From Nitrosomonadales bacterium (GTDB lineage Bacteria; Pseudomonadota; Gammaproteobacteria; Burkholderiales; Nitrosomonadaceae): a stretch of 39,942 nucleotides of DNA. The stretch spans positions 1-39,942 of the forward strand of contig VFJL01000031.1 in NCBI GenBank assembly GCA_009886095.1. The letters are read 5' to 3'. This document shows positions 7,270-39,942 of the stretch, in pieces; position 1 is the first letter of the stretch; every line of letters starts with the position of its first letter. A program made the position numbers and the translations under genes. The notes beneath the pieces were generated by a model. The model had not been told where the DNA came from. It worked only from the letters and a program-made list of their open reading frames with translations, and made no database searches.

Positions 7270-8907
7270 CTACGCATAGCCCGGATAATGGGGGTCGTAC
7301 ATTTGTTCTCGCACATACTCGAGCACATCCGCAGGCTGCGGCTTGGCGGCAAAGCCGCGCTGGTATGCAACCTCGGCAACCGCTACCGCGATCTTTGTGG
7401 ACGCTTCGCGGGTATGTATTAAGGACGGATAGAGGCTGCCTTGCTCAAGGTCGGTTGGAGTCACTTGCGCCGCCAGTGTGTGAGCGGCAGCAAGAAACAT
7501 CTCGTCAACGATACGCGTAGCACCACAGGCAATTGCACCTAGCCCGATGCCTGGGAAGATATATGAGTTATTACCCTGACGCGGCACCAGCGTTTTACCC
7601 CCCACCTGCACTGGCGCAAAGGGGCTGCCGCCCGCAAACAGGGCACGTCCGTCAGTTCCGCTGTAGGCCTGTTCGGCGGTGCATTCCGCTTTTGAGGTGG
7701 GGTTGGACAAGGCAAATACGATAGGCCGGGCGTTGCAATCGGCCATGGCGCGCAACACTTCCGGCGTAAAAGCACCACCGGCTGCGGAAACGCCGATAAT
7801 ACCGGTTGGCCGAAGTATTTTCACCGCCGAAAGAAAATCTCCCACGGGCGCATGATCATGTGCGTACGGTAGCTTTTGTAATGGAAGGCCGGTACGCGAT
7901 TTCACCACCAGCCCCTTCGAATCGACCAGCCAGCAACGCTTGCGTGCATCCGTTTCACTCATGCCCGACGCGACCAGTGCAGCCACAATGAGATTGGCAA
8001 TACCCGTGGCTGCGCCTCCCGCACCGAGGAACAGGAACTGCTCATCGGCAAGCTTGCTCCTCTTAATACGCAACGCCGACAGTATGCCGGCCAAGACGAC
8101 GGCCGCTGTGCCTTGAATGTCATCGTTGAACATGCAGATCCGGTTGCGATACTTCTCCAGCAGCCGGGATGCATTGTGACTGGCAAAATCCTCGAACTGG
8201 ATGATCACATTGGGAAACACTTCGTGCGCCGCTGTGATGAATTCCTCGATCAATTCATCATAGGCCGGGCCGGTCACTCGATGGCGGCGCAAGCCCACAT
8301 AGTACGGGTCGTTCAGAAGCGTTTCGTTGTTGGTGCCCATGTCGAGCATTACCGGCAGGCAAATTGCAGGATCCACGCCCGCGCAGGCGGTATAAAGAGA
8401 CAGCTTGCCGACCGGAATACCCATCCCATTGGCACCTTGGTCGCCGAGACCCAGAATGCGCTCACCGTCGGTCACGACGATGATGCCGGCACTGAGCGGC
8501 CAGTTGCGCAAGATCGCAGCGATCCGGCCGCGATCATTGATGCCGATAAACATGCCGCGTGGCCGTTGGAAAATATGGCCAAATCGCTCGCAAGCCAGTC
8601 CGACTGTCGGGGTGTAAATCAGCGGCTGAATTTCATCAATGTTGTCGCATACCACTCGGAAAAATAAAGCCTCATTACGGTCATGCAGCGCATTTAAGGC
8701 AACGAACTTTTCCAGCGGATCGGACAGCTTGCGCAAATTTTGCAGGACGCGGACGACCTGCTCATCCTGGGTAAGGACGTGCGGTGGAAGCAGGCCTCGC
8801 AGACCCAACGCATCGCGCTCGGCTTCCGTAAAAGCAGTGCCCTTATTACGTAGGGGATCATGAAGCAACTGTACGCCACGAGGCATCACACGCGGGGCAT
8901 CATTCAT
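7270..8907 (-). CDS. maeA: NAD-dependent malic enzyme
   Basis: This enzyme oxidatively decarboxylates malate to pyruvate with reduction of NAD. At 545 residues it has the size of the large eukaryote-type/SfcA malic enzymes. Visible are the N-terminal domain with IYTPTVGLACERFG, the glycine-rich VTDGERILGLGDQGANGMG segment, the metal-binding region FEDFASHNA followed by NDDIQGTAAVVLAG, and the NAD-binding fold FLGAGGAATGIA. The ATG at 8905-8907 has GGAG about 6 bases upstream. NAD rather than NADP preference is inferred from family membership. It stands alone on this strand and is 63 bases from rluB. Confidence 0.92.
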   Translation of the reverse strand: MNDAPRVMPRGVQLLHDPLRNKGTAFTEAERDALGLRGLLPPHVLTQDEQVVRVLQNLRKLSDPLEKFVALNALHDRNEALFFRVVCDNIDEIQPLIYTPTVGLACERFGHIFQRPRGMFIGINDRGRIAAILRNWPLSAGIIVVTDGERILGLGDQGANGMGIPVGKLSLYTACAGVDPAICLPVMLDMGTNNETLLNDPYYVGLRRHRVTGPAYDELIEEFITAAHEVFPNVIIQFEDFASHNASRLLEKYRNRICMFNDDIQGTAAVVLAGILSALRIKRSKLADEQFLFLGAGGAATGIANLIVAALVASGMSETDARKRCWLVDSKGLVVKSRTGLPLQKLPYAHDHAPVGDFLSAVKILRPTGIIGVSAAGGAFTPEVLRAMADCNARPIVFALSNPTSKAECTAEQAYSGTDGRALFAGGSPFAPVQVGGKTLVPRQGNNSYIFPGIGLGAIACGATRIVDEMFLAAAHTLAAQVTPTDLEQGSLYPSLIHTREASTKIAVAVAEVAYQRGFAAKPQPADVLEYVREQMYDPHYPGYA

Positions 8908-8970
8908 GCTGTCTCCTATAAGCAGGATAAGGTTGCAGAACAGAAAAAGCTTACATGAATCAGGTGTGAG

Positions 8971-9786
8971 TTACGCGACCAGTTCCAGCAAGCGTTTCAC
9001 TTCAGCTTCGTCCAGTTCCAGCGATTTGCCGCGCTTGAGGCGCGGTGGCAGGTTGATCGGGCCGAAGCGCACCCGGGTGAGACGGCTGACCATCTGCCCC
9101 GCCGCTGCAAACATCCGGCGCACTTCACGGTTCTTGCCTTCTTTCAATATCACCCGGTACCAGTGATTGGAACCCTCACCGCCCTGATCCGACAATAGCT
9201 CGAGTTTCGCCAGGCCGTCTTCGAGTTCAATGCCGGTGGTCAACAATGTCGTCTGTTCCGGGGTCAAACGTCCCATGATGCGTACCGCATATTCGCGCTC
9301 AACCTCAAACCGTGGGTGCATCAAACGGTTAGCCAATTCGCCGTCGGTGGTGAATATCAGCAGCCCGCTGGTGTTGAAATCCAGCCGACCTATCGCGACC
9401 CATTTGGATGATTGAAGCTGTGGCAGCTTGTCGAATACCGACGGGCGGCCTTGCGGATCATCGCGACTGACAATCTCGCCTTCCGGCTTATGATACAAAA
9501 TGACTCGCGGCAGGCGCTCGCCGAATTTAAGATGAATGGTACGCCTCCCTATCCGCACCACATCATCCGGTCCGGCTCGGCTACCGGTCTCCGCCGCCTT
9601 GCCGTTGATGGTCACCTGGCCAGTGGCAATCAGCTCCTCCATCTCGCGCCGCGACCCCAGCCCTGCCTGTGCCAGCAATTTGTGCAGTTTGTGCGTGACA
9701 CCTGGTGCAGATGCAGGGGCGACCCTGGTGCTGGTCGATGTCGGCGTTTTCTTCTTTATTGGTCTGATCGGTCTGCTGGTTCTCAT
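8971..9786 (-). CDS. rluB: 23S rRNA pseudouridine synthase (RluB type)
   Basis: This is a 271-residue RsuA/RluB/E/F family pseudouridine synthase. A basic N-terminal tail (about 30 residues) is followed by an S4 RNA-binding domain (KLLAQAGLGSRREMEELIATG, near residues 35-80) and the catalytic domain with the active-site aspartate in GRLDFNTSGLLIFTTDG. The REYAVR and KNREVRRMF motifs of the family are also present. The S4 domain together with the downstream LTRVRFGPINLPPRLKRG segment points to RluB, which modifies 23S rRNA at position 2605 (E. coli numbering). RluE and RluF are less likely alternatives. Confidence 0.88.
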   Translation of the reverse strand: MRTSRPIRPIKKKTPTSTSTRVAPASAPGVTHKLHKLLAQAGLGSRREMEELIATGQVTINGKAAETGSRAGPDDVVRIGRRTIHLKFGERLPRVILYHKPEGEIVSRDDPQGRPSVFDKLPQLQSSKWVAIGRLDFNTSGLLIFTTDGELANRLMHPRFEVEREYAVRIMGRLTPEQTTLLTTGIELEDGLAKLELLSDQGGEGSNHWYRVILKEGKNREVRRMFAAAGQMVSRLTRVRFGPINLPPRLKRGKSLELDEAEVKRLLELVA

Positions 9787-9942
9787 CTGTTTCTCAATGT
9801 GATAAATCGTTCACGCTCTGCCTTTATTCCAATAGTTTGCGAGTGAGGAGAGGTGGCGAGTGACCGCCGAAGATAATACGAATAATACGACAAGGCGTGA
9901 ACAGGAAAGCAACAAAATTTCGCTGATAACATGAACCCGGGG

Positions 9943-10539
9943 TCAGATTTCTCTGCGCTCCATCACCGCCTGCGCCAGGGTGCCGCTATCGACATGCTCC
10001 AGTTCACCGCCCACCGGCAGGCCGCGTGCAATGCGTGTGACCCTCATTCCCCTGGCATGCAACAGTTCGCTGATGTAATGCGCGGTAGCTTCGCCTTCCA
10101 CGGTAAAATTGGTAGCCAGTACAACTTCCTGCACCACGCCGTCCTGGGCCCGCTTGAGCAATCGGTCAAGATGGATTTCCTTGGGACCGACGCCATCCAG
10201 TGGCGAGAGTCTGCCCATCAGCACGAAATACATACCTTTGTAGCAGTGCGCCTGTTCCATCATTATCAGATCGGCAGGCATTTCCACTACGCATAGCAGT
10301 CCCGCATCACGCCGTTGGGAACGGCATAGCTCACACACCATTTCTTCGGTAAAATTATTGCATTTCTCGCAATGCCTGATATGTTCCAGCACATGGGTTA
10401 ATGAGCTGGCAAGCCGTTGTGCGCCCGCATGGTCGCGCTGCAGCAAGTGATAGGCCATACGCTGCGCTGACCTGGGCCCGACGCCGGGCAGGCAGCGCAG
10501 CGACTTGATCAGGTCTTCGAGACTGGTAGGTGTTTTCAT
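9943..10539 (-). CDS. recR: Recombination mediator RecR
   Basis: RecR works with RecF and RecO to load RecA at single-stranded gaps. From the ATG at 10537-10539 the protein has 198 residues, the usual length. A helix-hairpin-helix ([20 protein letters not shown]) is followed by a four-cysteine zinc motif (CEKCNNF...[10 protein letters not shown]), a Toprim domain ([15 protein letters not shown]) and the C-terminal Walker-like part. The frame stays open for nine more codons upstream, but the chosen ATG has GAGG seven bases before it and matches the family start. It is the last gene of the dnaX-ybaB-recR operon. The 132-bp gap before it carries a repeat-end-like sequence at 10551-10567. Confidence 0.95.
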
Positions 10540-10671
10540 TTTGAGGCCTCGAATTATTAGAGGCACCCTTGAATAAACCGTAGAAAAAAGCAGTGAATCA
10601 AGGAAGTGAAACGCACGGGTGTTGGCAAGCTAGCAGAGACAAGCTCCACGTACGATCAATCTTTCATGAAT

Positions 10672-10998
10672 TCAAAACGGCAATTTCATTCCTGGCGGCA
10701 GACCCATGCCGGAGGTGAAACCAGCCATTCTTTCCTGGCTGATAGCTTCAACCCGCCGCACCGCGTCATTGACCGCAGCGGCGAGCAGATCCTCCAGCAT
10801 TTCTTTGTCATCACCAATCAGACTGTCGTCTATGCTGACGCGCTTCACGTCATAACGGCAAGTCATCACCACCTTGACCATGCCCGCGCCGGATTGACCT
10901 TCGATTTCCATCTTGGCCAGTTGCTCCTGCATGTTTTTCATGTTTTCCTGCATTTGCTGGGCCTGTTTCATCAGGTTACCCAAGCCACCTTTCATCAT
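10672..10998 (-). CDS. ybaB: YbaB/EbfC family nucleoid-associated protein
   Basis: This 108-residue DNA-binding protein is the usual partner gene between dnaX and recR. The N-terminus is a methionine- and glutamine-rich helix ([26 protein letters not shown]), the family hallmark, followed by the strand [20 protein letters not shown]. YbaB-type proteins bind DNA as dimers and are proposed to act in nucleoid organisation or repair. A strong GGAGG sits 7 bases before the ATG, and only 15 bases separate it from the dnaX stop, so it is cotranscribed. Confidence 0.95.
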
Positions 10999-11013
10999 TT
11001 TCTACCTCCGCTA

Positions 11014-12660
11014 TTAAATGGGTTTGATCGAGGAAACAATTAGTCTTGCGTCAAAATTCTCCACCAGTTCGCGCACGAACGAGTCTGTTTCTATGGCGGC
11101 GATAGCCTGCGATTGCTTCGCCTGCTTTTCACGGTTTTCCAGTTCTGCTGGCGTCATGCCGGTAATGCTGCCGACAGAAAATTTCAGCCGTACCGGCTTG
11201 CCAAGATGCTCGCTTAGCGCAATTTTCATCTTTTCCTGGTAGGCCTTTTCCAGTAGATGCCGGTGGATTTCTGGTACGCATAGTTCGATTTCATTCGCAG
11301 AAAAATTCTTTAGTTCGCAGTGCTGTGCCAGCATTTTCGCCATGCCATTCAATTTTAACTGATTCACCAATGCCGGCCAATCGCCGTCGGATGGAGCTGC
11401 AACTGCGCTCGGTGTTGCTGCAACTGGCGTAACCGGCGTAACTACAACCGCTGTTGCTGCCGCAGTTGACACTGCCGGACGCGGCGTGACAGAGGGAACC
11501 TGCCGAGTGGCAGCGGGTGGCTGTCTGGTATTTGTAGCCGCCTCTACTTTGCGTGTGCTACCTGCTGCTGTATCCCCAGGCATGAAGGCCAGCATGCGCA
11601 TCAGTGTCATGCTAAAACCAGCGTATTCATCAGGTGCCAAACTCAGATCGCCGCGGCCATGCAGCGCAATCTGATAGAACAATTGAATATCTTCCGGCAT
11701 GAAAATTCCCGCCAGTGTAAAAATCCGCTCACGCTCCAGCACATCTTCGCTGATAGCCTGCGGTACGGTCTGCGCCAGCGCAAGGCGATGCAACAGCGCT
11801 GCCAGATCCTGCAAAGCCGCATCAAACGACAAGCTACGGGCCTCCATCGCGTCGGCTAACGCTAACATCCGCACCCCGTCTTTTTGCGCCAGTGCGTCCA
11901 ACAGGTCATATAGATAGTCCTGATCAATCGCACCCAACATGGCGCGTACCGAGGCTTCTTCGACCGCACCCTCGCCGAAAACAATCGCTTGGTCCAACAT
12001 ACTCAACGCATCACGCATGCTGCCCTGCGCCGCTCGCGCCAGCAATTGCAATGACACAGCGTCACAACCTATCTGCTCCTGCTCCAGCACGTGCTTAAGA
12101 TGCGCGGCAATCAGTGACGGCGGAATCTGTTTCAGATTGAATTGCAGGCAGCGCGACAGAACGGTGACGGGAATTTTCTGCGGATCGGTGGTGGCGAGCA
12201 CAAACTTGACATGCTCCGGCGGCTCCTCCAAGGTTTTCAGCATGGCGTTGAAAGCCGACTTGGAGAGCATGTGCACTTCGTCAATGATGTAAACCTTGTA
12301 GCGGGCGCAGGTGGGAGCGTAGAGCGCGTTTTCCAGCAGCTCGCGCATGTTGTCCACCTGGGTGTTGGAAGCAGCATCCAGCTCGATCAAATCGACAAAA
12401 TGCCCACCGTCGATTTCACTACAGGCAGAGCACTTGCCACAAGGTGTAGAGGTAATGCCGGTTTCGCAGTTGAGTGCCTTGGCCAGTATGCGCGCAATGG
12501 TGGTTTTGCCGACACCGCGTGTGCCGGTGAACAGGTAGGCATGGTGCAGACGTTTCCGTTCCAGCGCATTGGTCAGCGCCTTGACCACGTGATCCTGTCC
12601 GGTTAGCTCGGAGAAGCTCTTGGGGCGCCATTTACGCGCAAGGACTTGGGTTTGGGACAC
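11014..12660 (-). CDS. dnaX: DNA polymerase III subunits gamma and tau
   Basis: DnaX is the ATPase of the clamp loader that places the beta clamp on DNA and holds the polymerase cores. The 548-residue protein has a Walker A motif at 46-53 (GTRGVGKT), a zinc site with C65, C74, C77 and C80, the DEVH Walker B at 127-130 and the sensor region TTDPQKIPVTVLSRC. The middle is a low-complexity linker rich in Ala, Pro, Thr and Val (about residues 365-425), followed by a tau C-terminal domain. I see no A-rich slippery run, so a programmed frameshift making gamma is not evident. First gene of the dnaX-ybaB-recR operon. Confidence 0.96.
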   Translation of the reverse strand: MSQTQVLARKWRPKSFSELTGQDHVVKALTNALERKRLHHAYLFTGTRGVGKTTIARILAKALNCETGITSTPCGKCSACSEIDGGHFVDLIELDAASNTQVDNMRELLENALYAPTCARYKVYIIDEVHMLSKSAFNAMLKTLEEPPEHVKFVLATTDPQKIPVTVLSRCLQFNLKQIPPSLIAAHLKHVLEQEQIGCDAVSLQLLARAAQGSMRDALSMLDQAIVFGEGAVEEASVRAMLGAIDQDYLYDLLDALAQKDGVRMLALADAMEARSLSFDAALQDLAALLHRLALAQTVPQAISEDVLERERIFTLAGIFMPEDIQLFYQIALHGRGDLSLAPDEYAGFSMTLMRMLAFMPGDTAAGSTRKVEAATNTRQPPAATRQVPSVTPRPAVSTAAATAVVVTPVTPVAATPSAVAAPSDGDWPALVNQLKLNGMAKMLAQHCELKNFSANEIELCVPEIHRHLLEKAYQEKMKIALSEHLGKPVRLKFSVGSITGMTPAELENREKQAKQSQAIAAIETDSFVRELVENFDARLIVSSIKPI

Positions 12661-12707
12661 AATGTTGGTTGGGTGCAGGATAAACCTTACCTACTGGTCA
12701 AAAAGGG

Positions 12708-12805
12708 TGGCGAGCCTAACCCCCGGCACTTGCAAGAAATAGCTGTGGCTGCTTCCTTCCGGACCTGACCAGGTTCACTACCATGCAATGCGGGGAGGCC
12801 CGCCA
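12708..12805 (-). ncRNA. ffs: Signal recognition particle RNA (4.5S, small bacterial type)
   Basis: On the minus strand the ends TGGCGGGCC and GGCTCGCCA pair to close a 98-base hairpin. The apical part holds the conserved Ffh-binding core: CAGGTCAGGTCCGGAAGGAA, with the GGAA tetraloop and the asymmetric loop AGCAGCC on its 3' side. The RNA binds Ffh to target nascent membrane proteins. The gene lies just upstream of dnaX on the same strand, a common arrangement. Confidence 0.95.
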
Positions 12806-13042
12806 TAGAAAATGGTTACAAATAAATACAGTTGGCGTTCTTATATAGAAGGAAGATATCCAAAACCTCCTCTTCTTACTCTAACCGCAAACGCTATTCT
12901 GCCACTGTATTTTTGCTATTTCTCAATTGCGCCATTGTGCACGGAGTTGCCGCTCACGTCCACTATACGACACTATATACGATCGGCTTTTATCCGATTC
13001 TGCTACCTGCTTCTCCGGCATTGGCTCTGGTATCCTTGCGAT

Positions 13043-31023: not shown

Positions 31024-31116
31024 GGAGAGGTACCGAAGTGGCCATAACGGCGCTGACTCGAAATCAGATGGTCAGGGTAACCTGGCACGTGGGTTCGAAT
31101 CCCACCCTCTCCGCCA
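31024..31116 (+). tRNA. tRNA-Ser (anticodon CGA)
   Basis: The acceptor arms GGAGAGG (31024-31030) and CCTCTCC (31106-31112) pair perfectly, followed by discriminator G and an encoded CCA (31114-31116). The anticodon loop CTCGAAA lies between CTGA and TCAG, giving CGA at 31059-31061. A long variable arm (GGTCAGGGTAACCTGGCAC region) and the T-loop TTCGAAT identify a class II serine tRNA. It reads UCG codons. The glycan gene cluster starts about 370 bases downstream. Confidence 0.97.
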
Positions 31117-31240
31117 AGCATAAGCAATAACTCACTGACAATAATTGTATAAGTTATTCAAAGCGCCCAATCGTTGCCGCTGACCTTACCCGCTATTTTG
31201 GTAGATGGAAAAGGGCAAATCCAACATCTTCCGAGATATG

Positions 31241-31273
31241 AAAAAACCCACCAATGTAGGTCATGGTGGTGGG
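31241..31273 (-). terminator. Rho-independent terminator facing the minus strand
   Basis: Read on the minus strand, CCCACCA (31267-31273) pairs with TGGTGGG (31247-31253) and is followed by six T (31241-31246). It faces away from both flanking plus-strand genes. The only reading frame it could serve is the minus-strand remnant that stops at 31275, two bases away from the stem. Confidence 0.75.
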
Positions 31274-31274
31274 G

Positions 31275-31486
31275 CTAACAGTTCATTGTTATTTGTTTCC
31301 TATTATCAATGGGCTGGAACAAAATAAGGCCACCAAAACCACGCTGGACGGGAAAAAGGATGCCCACACCCTTCTTGTCGCTGAGAAAGTTGGGTAGGCC
31401 ATTATTGAGGCTTTGCTTGTGAACAAGCAGATGCGTCAATTGAGTTGACAGCCATGGTTTTTTATTGGAAAGGAACTCCTTAGCTA
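31275..31486 (-). pseudogene. Possible 3' remnant of a minus-strand gene
   Basis: An open frame on the minus strand ends with TAG at 31275-31277, two bases before a strong minus-strand terminator. The frame continues to 31556 inside the pyruvyl transferase gene, so only the part to about 31486 can be original. The peptide (LNNGLPNFLSDKKGVGILFP, then IDNRKQITMNC) is not one I recognise. A stop codon placed exactly at a terminator suggests the tail of a real gene whose 5' part was lost when the glycan cluster arrived. This is an inference; it could be a chance frame. Confidence 0.35.
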
Positions 31487-32881
31487 GTGGAGCGGCAATT
31501 AGTGAAAAACGATCGAGAGTGGCAGATTGGGATTTTTGGAACCTTTGATGTTGCAAATTATGGTGACCTACTGTTTCCTATCATCGCAGAAAAGGAGTTA
31601 ACCAATCGGCTTGGGGCTGTAAAATTTCATCGCTTTTCCTATCATGCTAGAACTCTGCCACAGTGGCCTTACGAAGTCATCTCACTTTCAGAGTTGCCGG
31701 AGTTAGCCGACTCGCTTGACGCCGTCCTTATTGGTGGCGGTTTCATCATCCGATTCGACAAGTTTATAGCGCCTGATTACGGTCCGCCGAATCCTTCCAT
31801 TCACCATCCCACCGGTTACTGGCTATCGCCCGCACTGATTGCCTTGCAGCATGGCATTCCGCTGATTTGGAACGCTCCGGGCATGCATTGCAATGAAGTG
31901 CCAGAGTGGGCCGTTCCTCTAGTAAAGCTGATGCTCGAGCACAGTCCTCATATCAAGGTTCGCGATACCCTATCTCAGTCGATCCTTACTCCTCTGAGCA
32001 ACAAGGCCCAAATCGATGTATTACCCGATACGGCCTTCGGTCTCTCGCGACTACTTAATGACAAGCAACCCTCGGCGGAATTCCTCGAGTTACGTAAAAA
32101 CGTAGGTTTGACTAACCCGTACCTGATCGTTCAGGCAATAGCCGGACTGGACAGTTTTTTGCGACTATGGAGAACCCATTCGAGTCAATTTCAGAAATTA
32201 CAAATTGTGCTGCTGCCAATAGGGCCAGTGCTCGGGGACCATGAGTCAATACTGGGCAACGATCTGCCTCGTTCGATTCGATTACCGTTCTGGCCTCAAC
32301 CAAAATTGCTTGCCGAGTTAATCTGCCATGCTGAAGGGGTAGTTGGGCAGAGTTACCATTTGGCGGTCAGCGCACTCGCCTTCGGCGTTCCAGTCTTTTG
32401 CTCGGCTGACCTAGGCTGCGGAAAATATACCGCCTTGCCGGTTTACGAGCGAATCTTCCAGCTTTCATGGGACATCAAGATCGATCCGCAGTGGCTCATC
32501 TCGAAATTGGGGAAACGGCCCATTTCTGCCGCAGCAAGTCATGCCCTCAATCAACTGGATGCGCACTGGGATCAGGTAGCCGGGATCATCCGAAAGGGAA
32601 CTAGGCCAACCAAGCCCGCACTCAATCGGTATTGGCAGTCACTACCAGGTTATCTTGAAGCCGCTCAAGATCATTGCCAGACGCCGGGAGTCGGAATCTC
32701 GCCCGCTCAAGCAGTCGCTGCAAAGCATAGAGCATCGTCTATGGCAGAGGTCACGGAGTTAAGCAACGCCTTGATGAGATCCAATGAGCACATTGCCGCC
32801 CTGTACGAATCAAACTCGTTTAAACTTACTGCACCGATGCGTACAATTAGACGCTATCTGAGACAGTTGCTGGGAAAATAA
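31487..32881 (+). CDS. Polysaccharide pyruvyl transferase family protein
   Basis: This 464-residue protein belongs to the family that adds ketal-pyruvate to sugars of exopolysaccharides or cell-wall glycans. The opening GIFGTFDVANYGDLLFPIIAEKEL has the family start (G-x-x-N-x-G-D). It is followed by DAVLIGGGFIIRFDK, IPLIWNAPGMHC and the C-terminal GVVGQSYHLAVSALAFGVPVF, where a conserved histidine sits. After about residue 390 comes a linker and a helical tail (SNEHIAALYESNSFKLTAPM) of a kind often fused to glycosyltransferases. The start is GTG at 31487, or the in-frame GTG at 31502 preceded by GGAG. First gene of the glycan cluster; 5 bases before the oxygenase gene. Confidence 0.82.
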   Translation: MERQLVKNDREWQIGIFGTFDVANYGDLLFPIIAEKELTNRLGAVKFHRFSYHARTLPQWPYEVISLSELPELADSLDAVLIGGGFIIRFDKFIAPDYGPPNPSIHHPTGYWLSPALIALQHGIPLIWNAPGMHCNEVPEWAVPLVKLMLEHSPHIKVRDTLSQSILTPLSNKAQIDVLPDTAFGLSRLLNDKQPSAEFLELRKNVGLTNPYLIVQAIAGLDSFLRLWRTHSSQFQKLQIVLLPIGPVLGDHESILGNDLPRSIRLPFWPQPKLLAELICHAEGVVGQSYHLAVSALAFGVPVFCSADLGCGKYTALPVYERIFQLSWDIKIDPQWLISKLGKRPISAAASHALNQLDAHWDQVAGIIRKGTRPTKPALNRYWQSLPGYLEAAQDHCQTPGVGISPAQAVAAKHRASSMAEVTELSNALMRSNEHIAALYESNSFKLTAPMRTIRRYLRQLLGK

Positions 32882-32886
32882 GCCTT

Positions 32887-33594
32887 ATGATCGACTTGAC
32901 CAAATTGACAGAGCACCGCCTACAGTCTCACCCTTTTAATTGGGCTGAAATCGGCGATTTGTATTCGCTGCATGATGCCGTCGCATTGGCCAAAACCTTT
33001 CCGCACGATTACTTCAAAACGGTATCTGGCTACGGCGGTGAAAAGGACTACGAATATGAGGCGCGCCAGCTTGTCGAAATGGGCACGCACCGTATCATCA
33101 ATCCGCAGACACTTAGCCCTGAATGGCTGGGCCTGGCCCAGGATTTATGTTTACCATCATACCGATCGGCGATGTCTCTGTTAACCGGAATTGATCTAAT
33201 TTCCGCACCGATAGAGGTCAACGTCTTTCACTATGGGCCAGGTGCTTGCCTTGGCCCTCATCCCGACTTAAGCGACAAGTTGGTCACACATATCTTGTAT
33301 TTCAATGAATCATGGAACCCCGATGATGGGGGCTGCTTAAATATCCTACGTTCCCCAGATCCTGATAGCGTGGTGGCCGTGGTACCCCCCATCGTTGGAA
33401 ACTCGGCCATTGTCGTACGCTCGGACGATTCGTGGCATGCCGTTTCAAGGGTAGTAGATGGATGCCTCTCGTCCCGTCGCAGCATGACTGTGACCTTCTA
33501 TCGGCCTAATTCTGTCAGTTCGATGTGGCCGGAAAATGATCGATCCCCCTTACACTGCTATGATGCCGATGTGGAAACCAGGCGAATCACTTAA
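32887..33594 (+). CDS. 2OG-Fe(II) oxygenase (prolyl 4-hydroxylase-like fold)
   Basis: This 235-residue cupin-fold dioxygenase has the iron ligands in order: H125-x-D127 (LGPHPDLSDKLVTHILYFN) and a distal H184 (DDSWHAVSRV), followed by arginines (CLSSRRSMTVTFY near 197) that would bind 2-oxoglutarate. NPDDGGCLNIL is the usual strand between them. Such enzymes hydroxylate peptides, amino acids, lipids or sugars. Here the substrate is probably a glycan or its carrier, judged only from neighbours. It is 5 bases after the pyruvyl transferase gene and 109 bases before the large fusion gene. Confidence 0.85.
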   Translation: MIDLTKLTEHRLQSHPFNWAEIGDLYSLHDAVALAKTFPHDYFKTVSGYGGEKDYEYEARQLVEMGTHRIINPQTLSPEWLGLAQDLCLPSYRSAMSLLTGIDLISAPIEVNVFHYGPGACLGPHPDLSDKLVTHILYFNESWNPDDGGCLNILRSPDPDSVVAVVPPIVGNSAIVVRSDDSWHAVSRVVDGCLSSRRSMTVTFYRPNSVSSMWPENDRSPLHCYDADVETRRIT

Positions 33595-33703
33595 CCGCTA
33601 CTCGCTCTGCTTCAATTGTTCCGATACAGTGCTACTCAGAAAGAGCCCCAGCAATTGAGTTCGGTGATACTGTGGAGCTCACTGCCAGCCTGGATTTTTC
33701 GAC

Positions 33704-36700
33704 ATGAAGCATAGAGACCTGGCTGACATGGCAACAACAAACTCAGATGCATACCGGGACACCGACCTCGGTGAGAATTGGGAAGCTCTTGAAGGGTCAA
33801 AACAGTCTCGATTTTTTTCACAGATTGCGATTGAGCATTTACCCGGCTGGCTGATTGACCAACTGAAATCGCAATCTCTTACGCTTGCCGACTGGGGCTG
33901 CGCCCAAGGTGATAGCACCAATGTATGGGCAAGCCATATCGATGCCCAACAGTTGACCGGCGTTGACTTCTCATCAGCGGCTATTGAACAAGCGGCAAAA
34001 CGCTACCCAACTATACGCTTCATTAACGAAAACTGGCTGACGGAAAATGACACTCAGAAAGAGCTTTTCGATGTTGTGTTTTCTTCGAACACGCCGGAAC
34101 ACTTTCATAGTCCCTACGATGCCTTGCACAACCTATGTGACCGAGCAAAAAAAACAGTTGTACTCGCATTGCCCTGCCGTGATCCGGATAGAATCAATAA
34201 ACACTTTTTCTCCTTTCTTCCCGAAAACATACCATCGGTTCTGCCCAATGGATTTAGGCTGGTCTGGTCGCAAACTGTAGATTGCCGCACGCTACCCAAT
34301 ACGCTTTGGGAAGGAGAACAGATAATTTTGTTGTTCGCCGATTCCAATTGGGTGGATGGACTAGGACTTACTCTAGACGACATCAAAATTGAGCAGCCCT
34401 CTGTCGTTGAAGTAGGTCGCCTCAAACCAATTGTGGCGAAACGCGACAGCACGATGGCGCTGGTGAGTTTACCGAAACAGGGTGCCTCCTGGCAGCTGAT
34501 TCGACCTTTGCGCTCTGTTGCTCGTCTGGCGCGTTACAATCTTGCCAACGAAGATCGTCAGCGATTAACTCAAGCAGCACTGCGCCAGCATTATCACCGC
34601 CTGCCACTACCTGCTTCAGCAAAACGACTGGTTAGCTTTGTCTACCATAAGTTGGTTGGCAAAACCGTACGGGCACTGCGCCGAAGTGCGTTGCGTGTTT
34701 CCCAGTTCCATGCGCCATCAATTAAATCTGCCCCCAGGGCGGACAACCTGCCAGATTACATCTTCTGGGGTGTTATCGACTGGCATTTTCGCCATCAGCG
34801 TCCCCAGCAACTTGCCCTGGCTTTAGCGAATACTGGCCGGCGTGTTTTTTATATTTCTCCAAATTTTGCAGACGATGAGCGAGCGGGTTTTGAGGTCGAA
34901 GCGCTGGATGCTGCGGGCTTGCTGTTTCAAGTAAAGCTATTTATTAAAGGCGAGCATGTTATCTATTCCTCTGCACTGGGATTCGAAACCGTCTCCCAAT
35001 TAAGAGCTAGCATCGGAGAGGTGTTGGAATGGGCTAACTGTGAGCAACTCATCTCGCTGGTTCAGCACCCATTTTGGCATAACGTGGCCTCGGTGCTGCC
35101 AAACAGCCGCCTGATCTATGACTGCATGGATCACCATGAAGGCTTTGGCAACAACACTGAATCTTTGCTGCAGACTGAAAAAGCACTGCTGAATAAAGCG
35201 GAGTTAACGGTTACAACTTCTAACTGGCTGGATAAATCTGTCGCGCGGCATACCAAGCAGCGTGCGTTGATTCGAAATGCCAGCGATTACGATCACTTTG
35301 CCAACGTGCCGGATAGCATCTATCACGATCCGCAGGGCCGGCGAATCATTGGCTACTACGGTGCGATTGCCGAATGGTTTGATCTGGATTTGATCGAGGC
35401 TGTTGCGAAGCAACACCCGGAGTGCTGTGTTTTGTTGATCGGTGCAGACACTGTTAATGCCAAGTCCAGACTCGGCAAGTTGGCCAATGTTACTTTCACT
35501 GGTGAGGTGCCGTACAGCAAGCTACCGTATTATCTTTGTGGCTTTAGCGTCTGTTTGTTGCCATTCAAGGTGATTCCACTCACGTTAGCAACGAACCCGG
35601 TCAAAATCTACGAATATCTCAGTGCGGGTAAACCAGTCGTGACAGTTGATTTGCCGGAGATGGCGCAGTTTAATGGCTTGGTGTACGCGACTGCTGATAA
35701 AGACGCTTTCCTTGCCGCAGTCAGCGCAGTGTTGAGCCAGCTAGAACCTGTTATCTTGGCTCAACAGCGCAAGGATTTCGCACAAGGACAAACCTGGCAG
35801 CGCCGTGCCGAAGCACTGATTCAACACGCCGAATCACACGCTCGTGACCCCAAAATTAGCGTTGTTGTTGTAACGTACAACAATCTTGATCTCACCCGTG
35901 CATGTCTGGCGAGTCTGGATGAGCACAGCCAGTACGAGCATATGGAAATCATTGTGGTCGACAATGCCTCCAGCGACGGTTCGTCGGCGTTCTTGTCTGA
36001 GTGGGTTGCAAAAAACAAATACCGCAAACTGATCCTCAATGAGGACAATAAAGGCTTTGCAGCGGCCATCACCCTAGGCTTAGCCGCCGCAAATGGCGAC
36101 TACCTGGTACTGCTCAACAACGACACCTACGTCACTCCCGGTTGGCTGCGCACGCTGCTCAGGCACCTGCAACGTGACGAAACCATCGGCCTGATTGGGC
36201 CAGTGACTAACAATATTGGCAACGAAGCCAAGATAGATATCGCCTATAGCTGCATGGATGAGATGCTACTGAAATCGGCCGCCTACACACGCAGACATAT
36301 TGGTCAAACCTATCCATTGCGTACTGCGGCATTTTTTTGCGTGATGATGTCGCGGGTGACCTACGAGCGCGTGGGCACATTGGACCCGTCCTTTGGACGA
36401 GGCTTCTTCGAAGACGACGACTACTGCCGTCGAGTTGAACAGTTAGGTCTGCGAATTGTGTGTTCTGAAGATGCATTCATTCACCATCAACTATCAGCCT
36501 CATTCAACAAGCTTAAACAGGGAGACCGGCATAAACTGTTTGAGGAAAACAAGAAAATTTATGAGGCAAAGTGGGGGGAATGGATGCCCCACGGATATCG
36601 GAAAAAACAGAATGCGACGACAGTCGTCCGCTCTGAATCTTCTGTGTTTCATGGGCAACGACACATCGACGGTCAATGCAATGTGTGCGGCAAGCAGGCG

Positions 36701-37507
36701 CATTTTTTCTATCAAAAAGTCGCACTTTGGCGTGAATCACTCAACTGCGAACACTGCCGCACGACTAGTCGATATCGCTCAATCACACGGGGAATCCTGC
36801 GCGCTATCTGTGAGTTGACTGGTGACGAGGCAACTTCATTGGCGACGTTGCCGCACAGCAGCAAGACGAGACTCCGCGTCTATGACACACAGCCTCCCTT
36901 CTATTACGACCCTTGCGCCTATCCTCTACCTGATCTCTTAAAGGCGACAGGCTGGGTAGAAATTATGCTGTCTCAATACAAGCCAAAGAAACCACTGGGG
37001 AAAGTGCTCGCCAAGGGGGTGACCAATCAGAATCTGGAATGCCTCACCTTTGCCAGTGACTCACTGGATATTGTGATTACCAGTGATGTTATGGAGCACG
37101 TTCGCTTGGATGATCGTGCGCATAGGGAAATCTATCGGGTTCTGAAGACCGGTGGTATCTACATTTTTACGGTTCCTCACAACCGCGCTTGGGACGAAAC
37201 ATTGATTCGGGTTCAGATAATTGATCCGGATGACCCATCTAAAGATGTGCATCTTCTGGAACCAGAATATCACGGCGATGCCAACAGTGATAAAGGTAGT
37301 GGAGTTTTGGCGTACCGCACGTATGGGAAAGATGTTGAAACCTTCCTGGCAGGACTTGGATTTGAAGTGGAGTATAGCCGCCTGGACATTGAGCAGCTTG
37401 GGATTATGAATACCGAACTGTTCTATTGTAGGAAAGGTAGCGCACTTAATCAAAGAACCTGTGCCGCCAGCCTACCTATCGGTTATTTCATCTCAACGGC
37501 TCTATGA
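33704..37507 (+). CDS. Four-domain methyltransferase-glycosyltransferase-glycosyltransferase-methyltransferase fusion
   Basis: A 1267-residue cytoplasmic protein without signal peptide. Order: (1) class I SAM methyltransferase, motif I LADWGCAQGDSTNVW near residue 61; (2) a basic linker with ASWQLIRPLRSVARLARYNL near 261; (3) GT4-like (GT-B) glycosyltransferase about 348-700, with FWGVIDWHFRHQRPQQLALA, GYYGAIAEWFDLDLIEAV and NPVKIYEYLSAGKPVV; (4) GT2-like (GT-A) glycosyltransferase about 716-940, with ISVVVVTYNNLDLTRACLAS, VDNASSDGSS and LLNNDTYVTPGW; (5) a CxxC...CxxC zinc-ribbon-like segment (CNVCGK, CEHCRTT, 990-1020); (6) a second methyltransferase, SDVMEHVRLDDRAHREIYRV, to about 1250. 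The final residues look unconserved. It probably builds and O-methylates a sugar chain, possibly as a capping unit. Confidence 0.85.
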   Translation: MKHRDLADMATTNSDAYRDTDLGENWEALEGSKQSRFFSQIAIEHLPGWLIDQLKSQSLTLADWGCAQGDSTNVWASHIDAQQLTGVDFSSAAIEQAAKRYPTIRFINENWLTENDTQKELFDVVFSSNTPEHFHSPYDALHNLCDRAKKTVVLALPCRDPDRINKHFFSFLPENIPSVLPNGFRLVWSQTVDCRTLPNTLWEGEQIILLFADSNWVDGLGLTLDDIKIEQPSVVEVGRLKPIVAKRDSTMALVSLPKQGASWQLIRPLRSVARLARYNLANEDRQRLTQAALRQHYHRLPLPASAKRLVSFVYHKLVGKTVRALRRSALRVSQFHAPSIKSAPRADNLPDYIFWGVIDWHFRHQRPQQLALALANTGRRVFYISPNFADDERAGFEVEALDAAGLLFQVKLFIKGEHVIYSSALGFETVSQLRASIGEVLEWANCEQLISLVQHPFWHNVASVLPNSRLIYDCMDHHEGFGNNTESLLQTEKALLNKAELTVTTSNWLDKSVARHTKQRALIRNASDYDHFANVPDSIYHDPQGRRIIGYYGAIAEWFDLDLIEAVAKQHPECCVLLIGADTVNAKSRLGKLANVTFTGEVPYSKLPYYLCGFSVCLLPFKVIPLTLATNPVKIYEYLSAGKPVVTVDLPEMAQFNGLVYATADKDAFLAAVSAVLSQLEPVILAQQRKDFAQGQTWQRRAEALIQHAESHARDPKISVVVVTYNNLDLTRACLASLDEHSQYEHMEIIVVDNASSDGSSAFLSEWVAKNKYRKLILNEDNKGFAAAITLGLAAANGDYLVLLNNDTYVTPGWLRTLLRHLQRDETIGLIGPVTNNIGNEAKIDIAYSCMDEMLLKSAAYTRRHIGQTYPLRTAAFFCVMMSRVTYERVGTLDPSFGRGFFEDDDYCRRVEQLGLRIVCSEDAFIHHQLSASFNKLKQGDRHKLFEENKKIYEAKWGEWMPHGYRKKQNATTVVRSESSVFHGQRHIDGQCNVCGKQAHFFYQKVALWRESLNCEHCRTTSRYRSITRGILRAICELTGDEATSLATLPHSSKTRLRVYDTQPPFYYDPCAYPLPDLLKATGWVEIMLSQYKPKKPLGKVLAKGVTNQNLECLTFASDSLDIVITSDVMEHVRLDDRAHREIYRVLKTGGIYIFTVPHNRAWDETLIRVQIIDPDDPSKDVHLLEPEYHGDANSDKGSGVLAYRTYGKDVETFLAGLGFEVEYSRLDIEQLGIMNTELFYCRKGSALNQRTCAASLPIGYFISTAL

Positions 37508-37526
37508 ACAACCCAGGGTGTTGGTA

Positions 37527-37604
37527 ATGAAAATTGATTCCTCTTTCGTGATCACTCCGTTACGTGCCAGTGAACTCTGCACGGCAGATGAGGCGAATAA
37601 GTGA
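37527..37604 (+). CDS. Possible 25-residue leader frame coupled to wecB
   Basis: A 25-codon frame (MKIDSSFVITPLRASELCTA and five more residues) begins at the ATG at 37527 and ends with TGA that overlaps the wecB GTG start as GTGA. No homology is recognised. It may be the remnant start of a lost gene or a short frame that couples translation of wecB to upstream ribosomes. Evidence is limited to the overlap and position. Confidence 0.25.
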   Translation: MKIDSSFVITPLRASELCTADEANK

Positions 37605-38704
37605 AAACCAAGAGATGCCTTTGTGTTGTGGGTACGCGTCCGGAAGCCATCAAAATGGCCCCAGTCATTTTGGCGTTGAAAAATGAGCCTTGGGCGAATG
37701 TCCGTGTGCTTGCTACTGCGCAACACCGCCACATGCTTGACCAAGTGATGAGTTTTTTTGATATAGAGCCGGATATTGATCTGAATATCATGCGGCCCAA
37801 CCAGGCGCTGACCACTTTAACAGCCAGACTGCTGCTTAAACTCGACGATGTACTAAAAACAGAGAAACCGGATGTAGTGCTTGCGCAAGGTGACACGACC
37901 ACGGTGATGGCCGTGGCACTGGCCTGTTTCTATCACCGCATCCCCTTCGGCCATGTAGAGGCGGGGCTTCGCACCTGGAATATGCAAAATCCATTTCCAG
38001 AGGAGGCGAACCGGGTGATAGCCGGGCGTTTGGCACGCTGGCATTTTGCGCCCACTGAAAACGCGCGCCAGAACTTGCTGCGAGAAGGCGTGAGCGATGC
38101 CGACATCATTGTCACCGGTAACACGGTGATTGATGCACTGTTAATGACAGCATCGAAAGAACTGGATATTGGTATCGAACTGGATGATGCCAAACGGCTG
38201 ATCCTGGTTACATCCCATCGGCGTGAAAATTTTGGCGAACCCTTCCGCAATATCTGCCGTGCACTGAACACCTTGGCTGAACGAAATTCCGACATCCAGA
38301 TTTTGTATCCTGTGCATCCCAATCCGAATGTGAAGGATGTCGCCCATGAGATGCTGGGCGGGAGCGACAACATCATTTTATGTGGGCCTTTGGATTATGC
38401 ACCTTTCATTGCGGCGATGAAACGAGCTTATTTGATTATCAGCGATTCGGGCGGCGTGCAGGAGGAAGCGCCAGCGCTGAGTAAACCGGTATTGGTATTG
38501 CGCGACGAAACTGAGCGCCCCGAAGCTGTCGAGATGGGGGTGGTAAAGCTGGTGGGGCCGGACTATAAGCGCATCATCAAAGAGACGCAATTGCTGTTAG
38601 ATGATGGGGTTGCCTACCAGACCATGGCACGCGGTGTTTCCCCGTATGGCGATGGCAAAGGGGCAGGGAGAATTGTGTCTGCGTTGCGAGAGTACTTCGC
38701 TTAA
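37601..38704 (+). CDS. wecB: UDP-N-acetylglucosamine 2-epimerase (non-hydrolysing)
   Basis: WecB interconverts UDP-GlcNAc and UDP-ManNAc, the precursor of ManNAc and ManNAcA residues in surface glycans. The 367-residue protein shows the family motifs CVVGTRPEAIKMAPVILAL at the start, AQGDTTTVMAVALACFY near residue 90, FGHVEAGLRTWNMQNPFPEEANR near 110 and, at the C-terminus, SDSGGVQEEAPALSKPVLVLRDETERPEA. The start is a GTG at 37601. Its stop overlaps the next ATG by one base, so the two genes are translationally coupled. No ManNAc dehydrogenase (wecC) is visible downstream within the window. Confidence 0.95.
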   Translation: MKTKRCLCVVGTRPEAIKMAPVILALKNEPWANVRVLATAQHRHMLDQVMSFFDIEPDIDLNIMRPNQALTTLTARLLLKLDDVLKTEKPDVVLAQGDTTTVMAVALACFYHRIPFGHVEAGLRTWNMQNPFPEEANRVIAGRLARWHFAPTENARQNLLREGVSDADIIVTGNTVIDALLMTASKELDIGIELDDAKRLILVTSHRRENFGEPFRNICRALNTLAERNSDIQILYPVHPNPNVKDVAHEMLGGSDNIILCGPLDYAPFIAAMKRAYLIISDSGGVQEEAPALSKPVLVLRDETERPEAVEMGVVKLVGPDYKRIIKETQLLLDDGVAYQTMARGVSPYGDGKGAGRIVSALREYFA

Positions 38705-39834
38705 TGCAATTAGTCTATTTATCTCCTGTGCCGTGGTCAAGTTTTGCACAGCGACCACACAAATTTATTGCGTGGTTTCATGCCACCACGGACGGGGATG
38801 TGTTGTGGGTCGACCCTTACCCAACCCGCTTTCCACTGTTTTCTGATCTCCGTCGAATAGGCTCCCAGGAAAGCAAGGAAAACCACGCGCATCCTGCATG
38901 GCTAAGGGTCATCAGGCCATCCGCCTTGCCCATAGAGCCACTACCCGTGTCAGGCTGGGTGAACGCGTTAATGTGGCAACCGATGCTTAAGGAAATCGAT
39001 GCATTTTCTCGTCAAAAACCAACTCTTTTAGTCGTTGGCAAACCATCGGTACTGGCTCTGGCTGTTTTGAAGCGACTCAAGGGGTGCAACTCTATCTACG
39101 ATATGATGGATAATTTCCCTGCTTTTTATTCTGGACTTTCCCGCCTGGCGATGCGTTGCAGGGAACAGGAATTGGTTCGCTGTGTGACTTTTGTGCTGGC
39201 TTCATCGACTGCGTTAAAGAAGCACTGGAGCGGTGTTCGGGAAGGTATTCAGTTAGTGCATAACGGACTGGATGCCGAGGCTTTACCAGCGCCAAGAAGT
39301 AACGTTGGTTCAAGAGAAAAAAAGGTGCTGGGTTATGTGGGCACCATCGCGGCATGGTTTGATTGGAACTGGGTAATTGCGCTGGCCAAGGCCCGGCCAA
39401 TGGATATCGTGCGACTGATTGGCCCGGTGTTTGCACCCGCTCCAGGTGTGCTGCCGGAAAACATAGAGATGTTGCCGCCTTGTAACCATCAAGTAGCTCT
39501 GCAGGCCATGCAGGGCTTTGATGTTGGATTGATTCCATTCAAGAAGAATGAACTGACGGCATCGGTTGATCCGATTAAATATTACGAATACCGCGCACTA
39601 GGGTTGCCTGTGATCTCCACCAGTTTTGGTGAAATGGCGTTGCGCGGAAGCGAGCAAGGAATCTTTCTCAGCGGGGAGCCACAGAACCTCAATCATCTGG
39701 TACAAAAAGCACTGCTTTTCAGCGCCGACGATAAGGCAATACAGCAATTTATAGCCGGCAATACATGGGAGGTGCGTTTTGCCGCTATAAAACTTAAGGT
39801 AATTATATACCTGACAGACCCATTGTTAGATTAG
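38704..39834 (+). CDS. GT4-like glycosyltransferase
   Basis: This 376-residue GT-B fold protein begins MQLVYLSPVPWSSFAQRPHK. It carries IYDMMDNFPAFYSGLSRL, then GYVGTIAAWFDWNWVIALAK near residue 215, and the C-terminal donor-site segment FDVGLIPFKKNELTASVDPI leading into KYYEYRALGLPVISTSFGEM. All three blocks have clear counterparts in the middle glycosyltransferase domain of the 1267-residue protein (IYDCMDHHEGF, GYYGAIAEWFDLDLIEAVAK, NPVKIYEYLSAGKPVVTV). The two are therefore related modules, likely acting on similar substrates. The gene is coupled to wecB by a TAATG overlap. Confidence 0.85.
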   Translation: MQLVYLSPVPWSSFAQRPHKFIAWFHATTDGDVLWVDPYPTRFPLFSDLRRIGSQESKENHAHPAWLRVIRPSALPIEPLPVSGWVNALMWQPMLKEIDAFSRQKPTLLVVGKPSVLALAVLKRLKGCNSIYDMMDNFPAFYSGLSRLAMRCREQELVRCVTFVLASSTALKKHWSGVREGIQLVHNGLDAEALPAPRSNVGSREKKVLGYVGTIAAWFDWNWVIALAKARPMDIVRLIGPVFAPAPGVLPENIEMLPPCNHQVALQAMQGFDVGLIPFKKNELTASVDPIKYYEYRALGLPVISTSFGEMALRGSEQGIFLSGEPQNLNHLVQKALLFSADDKAIQQFIAGNTWEVRFAAIKLKVIIYLTDPLLD

Positions 39835-39942
39835 AATCTGTTGCCTATCACTGTCGCCAACAGCCTCAGCAGACTTAACCATATCTAATCTGCCCATTGG
39901 AAGATCAAGTCTTTTCCCTTCCAAAATTTCAACTACAGTCAC
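39826..39942 (-). CDS. Possible C-terminal end of a convergent gene
   Basis: On the minus strand a frame without stops enters from the right edge and ends with TAA at 39826-39828, overlapping the end of the plus-strand glycosyltransferase gene by 9 bases. The 38 visible residues (including VVEILEGKRLDLPMGRLDMV) read like ordinary protein sequence but match no family I know. On the plus strand the same region has no frame with a usable start. It could be a chance opening; more sequence to the right would settle it. Confidence 0.35.
   Translation of the reverse strand: MTVVEILEGKRLDLPMGRLDMVKSAEAVGDSDRQQILI

Follow-up and report, generated by a model that had tools for sequence, protein, structure and literature searches.

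In the S-layer glycan system of Geobacillus stearothermophilus, WsaE is a trifunctional protein in which an N-terminal methyltransferase, making a 2-O-methyl cap, precedes two rhamnosyltransferase domains; it is soluble, is encoded beside wzm/wzt, and its methyl group caps the chain (PMC2943079). ORF6 of Klebsiella pneumoniae O7 was shown in vitro to begin with a methyltransferase-kinase terminator, followed by a coil and, at the C-terminus, two glycosyltransferase (GT) modules, and in both O7 ORF6 and O12 WbbB a single protein for an ABC-exported O-polysaccharide comprises a terminator, a coiled coil and a pair of polymerase GT modules, the GT modules being of the GT2 type in the former and of other GT families in the latter (PMC11231755). 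The same functional plan, in which a dual-GT polymerase is paired with a methyltransferase that terminates the chain from the distal tip of a coil ruler, is divided between two separate proteins in E. coli O9a, WbdD and WbdA, of which WbdD carries a kinase (PMC3482155). In those analogues that have been characterised, iterative action of the GT modules gives a polymer, and a methyl group ends the chain (PMC2943079, PMC11231755).

The window analysed here, a whole contig (C57) of 39,942 bases from an assembly of 2.1 Mb (81 contigs, 93.5% complete) of the Nitrosomonas family, encodes a 1267-aa protein of comparable plan. Like WsaE, it joins an N-terminal methyltransferase (MT1) and two GT domains in one polypeptide, the likeness being one of domain plan, but no C-terminal second methyltransferase has been described for WsaE. 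In addition, WsaE uses rhamnose, whereas the gene in the window adjoins wecB and genes encoding a pyruvyl transferase and a 2OG oxygenase. Compared with O7 ORF6 and O12 WbbB, the window protein has no kinase (Pfam detected no kinase domain in the 1267 aa), a GT-B plus GT-A core, an extra methyltransferase-like domain (MT2) and no coil. It differs from WbdD/WbdA in being a single chain, and no WbdD chain was present among the PDB matches of the MT1 profile at E 0.01. Stand-alone TuaH-like GT4 and GT2 glycosyltransferases resemble the core in folds and motif residues, but the sequence similarity is weak and far under the family cut-offs.

Domain order of the fused protein

The frame at 33704..37507 on the + strand starts with ATG, contains no internal stops and, according to Pfam and segment mapping, encodes MT1, a short linker, GT-B, GT-A and a zinc ribbon/MT2. 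Pfam matched Methyltransf_25/31 at residues 63-144, Glyco_trans_1_4 at 563-678 (the GT-B C-lobe), Glycos_transf_2 at 719-883 (E 2e-27) and part of Methyltransf_11 at 1107-1155, and NCBIfam returned distant TuaH-like and GT2 similarity, with every match far under cut-off. An AlphaFold model of residues 1-975, built from 16 sequences, contained three domains folded with confidence (mean pLDDT 78), the low-confidence parts being mostly the linker and the ends. Parts of this model matched GT-B enzymes (methylmannose polysaccharide mannosyltransferase, GumK, and MshA) and GT-A GalNAc-transferases in Foldseek, and a PDB sequence search with the whole protein retrieved chiefly generic GT2 enzymes. 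The open reading frame, the Pfam order and the model confirm the predicted presence of a methyltransferase, a GT-B, a GT-A and a second methyltransferase-like domain in one frame.

MT1 (aa 1-240; 33704..34423, + strand) is a canonical class I SAM methyltransferase and a putative chain-capping domain. The D/ExGxGxG motif I and the downstream acid of this class are represented in the 16-sequence alignment by DWGCAQGD(G/S)T and the conserved D88, the window reading DWGCAQGDS with the change G71S, and the MT1 profile matched BamL/BpumL methyltransferases in the PDB. The GT-B domain (aa 340-708; 34721..35827, + strand) is distantly TuaH-like (NPVKIYEYLSAGKP, with E637 invariant), and the GT-A domain (aa 712-970; 35837..36613, + strand) is of the GT2 type, with VVDN, LNNDT (DXD-like) and FEDDD conserved among relatives. 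The original prediction saw signature residues in every domain; alignments of relatives bear this out for MT1, GT-B and GT-A but not for MT2, which is treated below. A profile-profile comparison of MT1 and MT2 shared only an 18-column stretch (probability 12%), in agreement with the suggestion that the two are unrelated beyond the fold, and an origin of the pair as duplicates was rejected.

Recurring fusions and a probably contracted coil

To place the protein in its family, the four segments were mapped onto each of 65 relatives found in a scan with one genome per species. The GTB-GTA core is constant across these relatives and the N-terminal module is swapped. The MT1+GTB+GTA junction was found in 21 of them, mostly Burkholderiales but also Pseudomonas and Desulforamulus (the count includes Rugosibacter L046, in which an assembly gap divides the frame), and GTB+GTA+MT2 in eight (Cellvibrionales, Nitrospira, Desulfopila, Nitrospinota, a family-mate of the window, and others). 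Because both junctions recur in independent genomes, a fusion of separate genes by sequencing error, a concern raised with the original prediction, is excluded. An MT1-type domain, the core and MT2 occur together in the window only, and in none of the 65 relatives or the broader order and class samples. Four relatives (L040, L061, L043, and L042) are mosaics of four or more parts with a different N-terminal methyltransferase, L041 has five domains (two N-terminal methyltransferases, the core and MT2), a make-up of three methyltransferases and two GTs that is found in one Nitrospira protein, and L047 carries two N-terminal methyltransferases before the core. The N-terminus of L059 is a sulfotransferase domain (weak match) and that of L067 consists of hexapeptide and Capsule_synth domains. 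The viral contigs searched gave no match to the 1267-aa protein, and the phages and plasmids searched contained partial or three-domain relatives only. The protein is a mosaic version of the known polymerase-terminator plan, and its relatives hold equal or richer mosaics.

The linker (aa 241-339; 34424..34720, + strand) is short and poorly modelled in the window, while a coiled coil of tandem heptads is found at this site in many relatives. The region N-terminal to GT-B ranges from ~10 to >800 aa in the relatives when N-terminal modules are counted, and the linker alone from 125 to >500 aa in the MT1-bearing ones, against 84 aa (256-339) in the window. Tandem Repeats Finder, applied to the coding DNA upstream of GT-B, gave a period that is a multiple of 21 bp (21, 42, 84 or 126) in 15 of the 19 array-bearing relatives (binomial p 5e-10 against an expectation of 1 in 7), the remaining periods being 33, 96 or 138 bp. 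In a composition-shuffled heptad test, z was at least 3 in 19/65 relatives; the hydrophobic-heptad score misses Ala-rich ERDxAxA coils, so the coil calls in L040, L046, L047 and L061 rest on the repeats themselves. The 84-aa linker of the window showed no tandem repeat and a heptad z of -1.2 in the same test. The features recognised between MT1 and GT-B are a single remnant heptad, AKRDSTMAL (aa 245-253; 34436..34462, + strand), comparable to the ERDSAVA repeats of L046, and the post-coil motif SWQLIRPLR (aa 262-270; 34487..34513, + strand), which reads SWRLTxPLR in many relatives and for which a strict regular expression proved too restrictive for a meaningful count.

In the core tree, the window protein groups most closely with Rugosibacter L046 and the Chloroflexota MAG L047, at a support of 90, under the tree's 95 star. 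In L046, MT1 is followed by nine visible ERDSAVA-type heptads flanking a 100-N assembly gap. The window protein has lost the coil “ruler” that separates the capping part from the building part in most relatives, and its linker is most simply read as a contracted array. The N-gap of L046 falls exactly within its repeat array, which indicates that heptad arrays are hard to assemble, and a short-read assembly might have merged such an array in the window, in which case the real gene would have a full ruler. This is very unlikely: collapse of an array would ordinarily leave near-identical copies behind or interrupt the contig, but here the contig is unbroken and shows a lone, diverged heptad remnant, without copies beside it and without a repeat signal. 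The domain order and conserved motifs show a putative terminating domain at the N-terminus, joined to two GT modules on a single chain, as in the polymerase-terminators. Since the extended coiled coil between these parts, found in many relatives, is absent, the window protein falls outside that group by this mark, even if its working plan looks alike.

Divergence of the two methyltransferase-like domains

The window MT1 departs from the family at eight of 62 near-invariant columns (W18R, R21D, F22L, D25N, G71S, L131P, E160D, and E166K), compared with 0-6 in 15 relatives and with 13/312 in the remainder of the same protein (Fisher p 0.013); the corresponding numbers for GT-B (4/116), GT-A (6/100) and MT2 (3/96) are inside the family range. 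When window-specific changes in MT1 were counted against those of L046, four outgroups gave 24-29 versus 9-13, about twice the rate of this sister, and a fifth gave 19 versus 16, all five outgroups being related to one another and the sites few. The same comparison was nearly even for GT-B (26:25) and GT-A (17:14). These data fit a model where constraint on capping may have been relaxed after loss of the coil, for which the evidence is modest.

One could go further and propose that MT1 is a decaying remnant: with the coil lost, capping would have become useless and selection on it relaxed, which would leave the GT core, and perhaps MT2, as the only working parts. The excess of changed columns and the faster rate with four of the five outgroups speak for such decay, but the frame is intact, SAM motif I is mostly kept, the fifth outgroup shows no rate difference, and a dN/dS of ~0.14, with dS saturated, places the frame under purifying selection. 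We consider decay of MT1 improbable. That an MT1 with this many altered columns could be losing function is nonetheless a point against reading the protein as a polymerase-terminator.

MT2 (aa 975-1250; 36626..37453, + strand) is a divergent zinc-ribbon methyltransferase-like domain. Its ribbon (CxxC...CxxC, aa 992-1018; 36677..36757, + strand) had been described as an insert; the four cysteines (C992, C995, C1015, and C1018) are real and invariant in all nine MT2 sequences aligned, but they lie at the N-terminal edge of the domain and not within the fold. In the same nine sequences, the position of motif I is occupied by an invariant Y-D-T-Q with no glycine-rich loop, and the strand-2 acid site, SEY in the wider relative L125, reads S(Q/L/N/R/S)Y/F. 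Because the canonical motif I and strand-2 acid of class I SAM methyltransferases are both absent from all nine members, the proposal of four catalytic domains is not secured; the possibility, raised at the outset, that a domain might lack catalytic residues throughout its family is realised in part, for MT2.

It is a serious, if not the favored, possibility that MT2 is a zinc-ribbon binding module built on a methyltransferase fold and not a methyltransferase. The missing motif I and the replaced acid are consistent with this, as is the restriction of the Pfam and PDB profile matches to the second half of the domain. However, the remainder is strongly conserved, with ~90 invariant columns across the nine sequences, and L125 also has no textbook motif I, so the wider zinc-ribbon group may bind SAM differently. 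The AlphaFold model of MT2 (pLDDT 52) is too poor to judge the pocket.

Gene context and proposed function

The glycan genes of the window, from 31487 to the contig end, follow a tRNA-Ser(CGA) gene (31024..31116, + strand). The gene for the fused protein was absent from 8/8 congeners at the E-value used. The preceding locus, from an mltF-like gene to tRNA-Ser, is kept in seven congeners, and in 6/6 of those compared continuous DNA similarity breaks off at most a few bases from the end of tRNA-Ser, with one further 69-base match beyond it in L141 only. As congener similarity stops at this point, the glycan genes lie in a variable island bounded by tRNA-Ser(CGA). The island encodes a polysaccharide pyruvyl transferase (PF04230; 31487..32881, + strand), a 2OG-Fe(II) oxygenase (32887..33594, + strand) with homologues close to the core gene in 12/65 loci, the fused protein, the UDP-GlcNAc 2-epimerase WecB (37601..38704, + strand), whose gene is the commonest downstream neighbor in relatives, and a stand-alone GT-B (38704..39834, + strand), which is ~27-29% identical to the GT-B domain and often follows wecB downstream of the core gene in relatives. 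The contig ends 108 bases after this last gene.

Among the 53 relatives with at least 4 kb of upstream DNA, Wzm was found upstream of the core gene in 48 and Wzt in 46, and the one Wzt examined, that of L027, has a Wzt_C domain. Wzm/Wzt are absent from the window as far as the contig extends. A Wzm/Wzt pair (L109) is encoded elsewhere in the genome, on contig C36, beside argJ-like and ppc-like genes (names read from sequence, the permease also by PF01061). The genome, at 93.5% completeness, contained no cap-binding Wzt_C domain and no Polysacc_synt match, and it has one Wzy_C protein. As the exporter pair is unlinked and Wzt_C was not found, the cap may not be needed for export. The domain order and the ABC-export context in relatives support the predicted role in glycan synthesis, and capping a chain is the best guess for MT1, given the WsaE and Klebsiella O7 precedents (PMC2943079, PMC11231755) and the frequency of Wzm and Wzt among the relatives.

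Taken together, these observations make it reasonably probable that the window protein is a fused polymerase-terminator with a reduced coil, serving the synthesis of an ABC-exported surface polysaccharide. We infer that the GT-B and GT-A modules would alternate to build a chain with two repeating linkages on a lipid carrier, and that MT1 would O-methylate the growing non-reducing end and so stop growth. MT2, placed beside the polymerase, would most likely methylate a repeat residue, or could now be a non-catalytic substrate- or complex-binding module. By analogy with WbdD, the coiled coil of many relatives, which would keep the capping domain off the polymerase, should set chain length, and its contraction to one heptad predicts short chains or capping uncoupled from length.

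The original interpretation is partly supported. Its proposal that two sugars are added and methylated in a fixed order stays hypothetical; the GT modules of the analogues polymerise and the methyl group ends the chain. A related model, in which either GT contributes a single sugar and both methyltransferases decorate the resulting short, fixed oligosaccharide, would fit a product with no length control, as the missing coil and the lack of Wzt_C suggest. This is unlikely, as the characterised proteins of the same architecture are polymerases (PMC2943079, PMC11231755) and the relatives sit with Wzm/Wzt.

Surprising features of this system are modules that can be swapped, a coil coded by repeats, the lack of that coil in the window and a second, non-canonical methyltransferase domain. 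Tentatively, they could describe a widespread family of mosaic polymerases with a fixed GT-B/GT-A engine, a swappable N-terminal cap and a coil “ruler” written in heptad DNA repeats whose slippage would alter its length, the window protein being a ruler-less form with a second non-canonical methyltransferase. Since the coil is written in tandem heptad repeats, chain length could evolve, and even vary within a strain, by slippage; if true, in-frame heptad repeats would be a simple genetic route to altered polysaccharide length. MT2 poses the question of whether a methyltransferase fold can still work when the usual SAM motif is missing, and a natural coil-less protein offers a direct test of the molecular-ruler model. 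With its swapped modules, the family offers cap chemistries, coil lengths and polymerases in dozens of natural combinations that could be used to test how bacteria control the length of surface glycans.

Island border and translation start

The DNA of congeneric genomes resembles that of the window as far as the 3' end of a tRNA-Ser(CGA) gene (31024-31116) and diverges beyond it. The tRNA gene is thus the border of a variable island, which takes up the remainder of the window (31117-39942). The translation start of the 1267-residue frame is uncertain, with 33704 and 33728 as the two candidates. The second ATG (33728, residue 9) corresponds approximately to the start position in most relatives of the N-terminal methyltransferase domain (MT1), and no clear ribosome-binding site was found ahead of either ATG.

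Richer mosaics and their neighbors

A Nitrospira relative of 1512 residues (L041, 1158-5696) combines three methyltransferase and two glycosyltransferase domains in a single frame. At another related locus, L043, the protein carrying the constant GT-B/GT-A pair (8402-12997) has an LpxL-like N-terminus followed by a methyltransferase, a linker, two glycosyltransferases, and the second methyltransferase-like domain (MT2). By sequence, the N-terminus looks like a candidate LpxL-type acyltransferase; a Pfam search gave no match for this part. A conserved protein of ~810 residues (12997-15438 in L043; homologues in 17 loci) gave no Pfam match; its gene usually lies immediately downstream of the core gene.

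In the window's own genome, a Wzm/Wzt exporter pair lacking the cap-binding domain Wzt_C (L109 on contig 36, 8110-9748) is flanked by housekeeping genes, distant from every glycan cluster seen.

Repeat-encoded coils

The coiled-coil linkers of ten loci (L041, L042, L044, L047, L049, L052, L059, L060, L061, and L097) are encoded by in-frame tandem DNA repeats of 21, 42, 84, or 126 bp. Slippage in these repeats could possibly lead to variation in glycan chain length.
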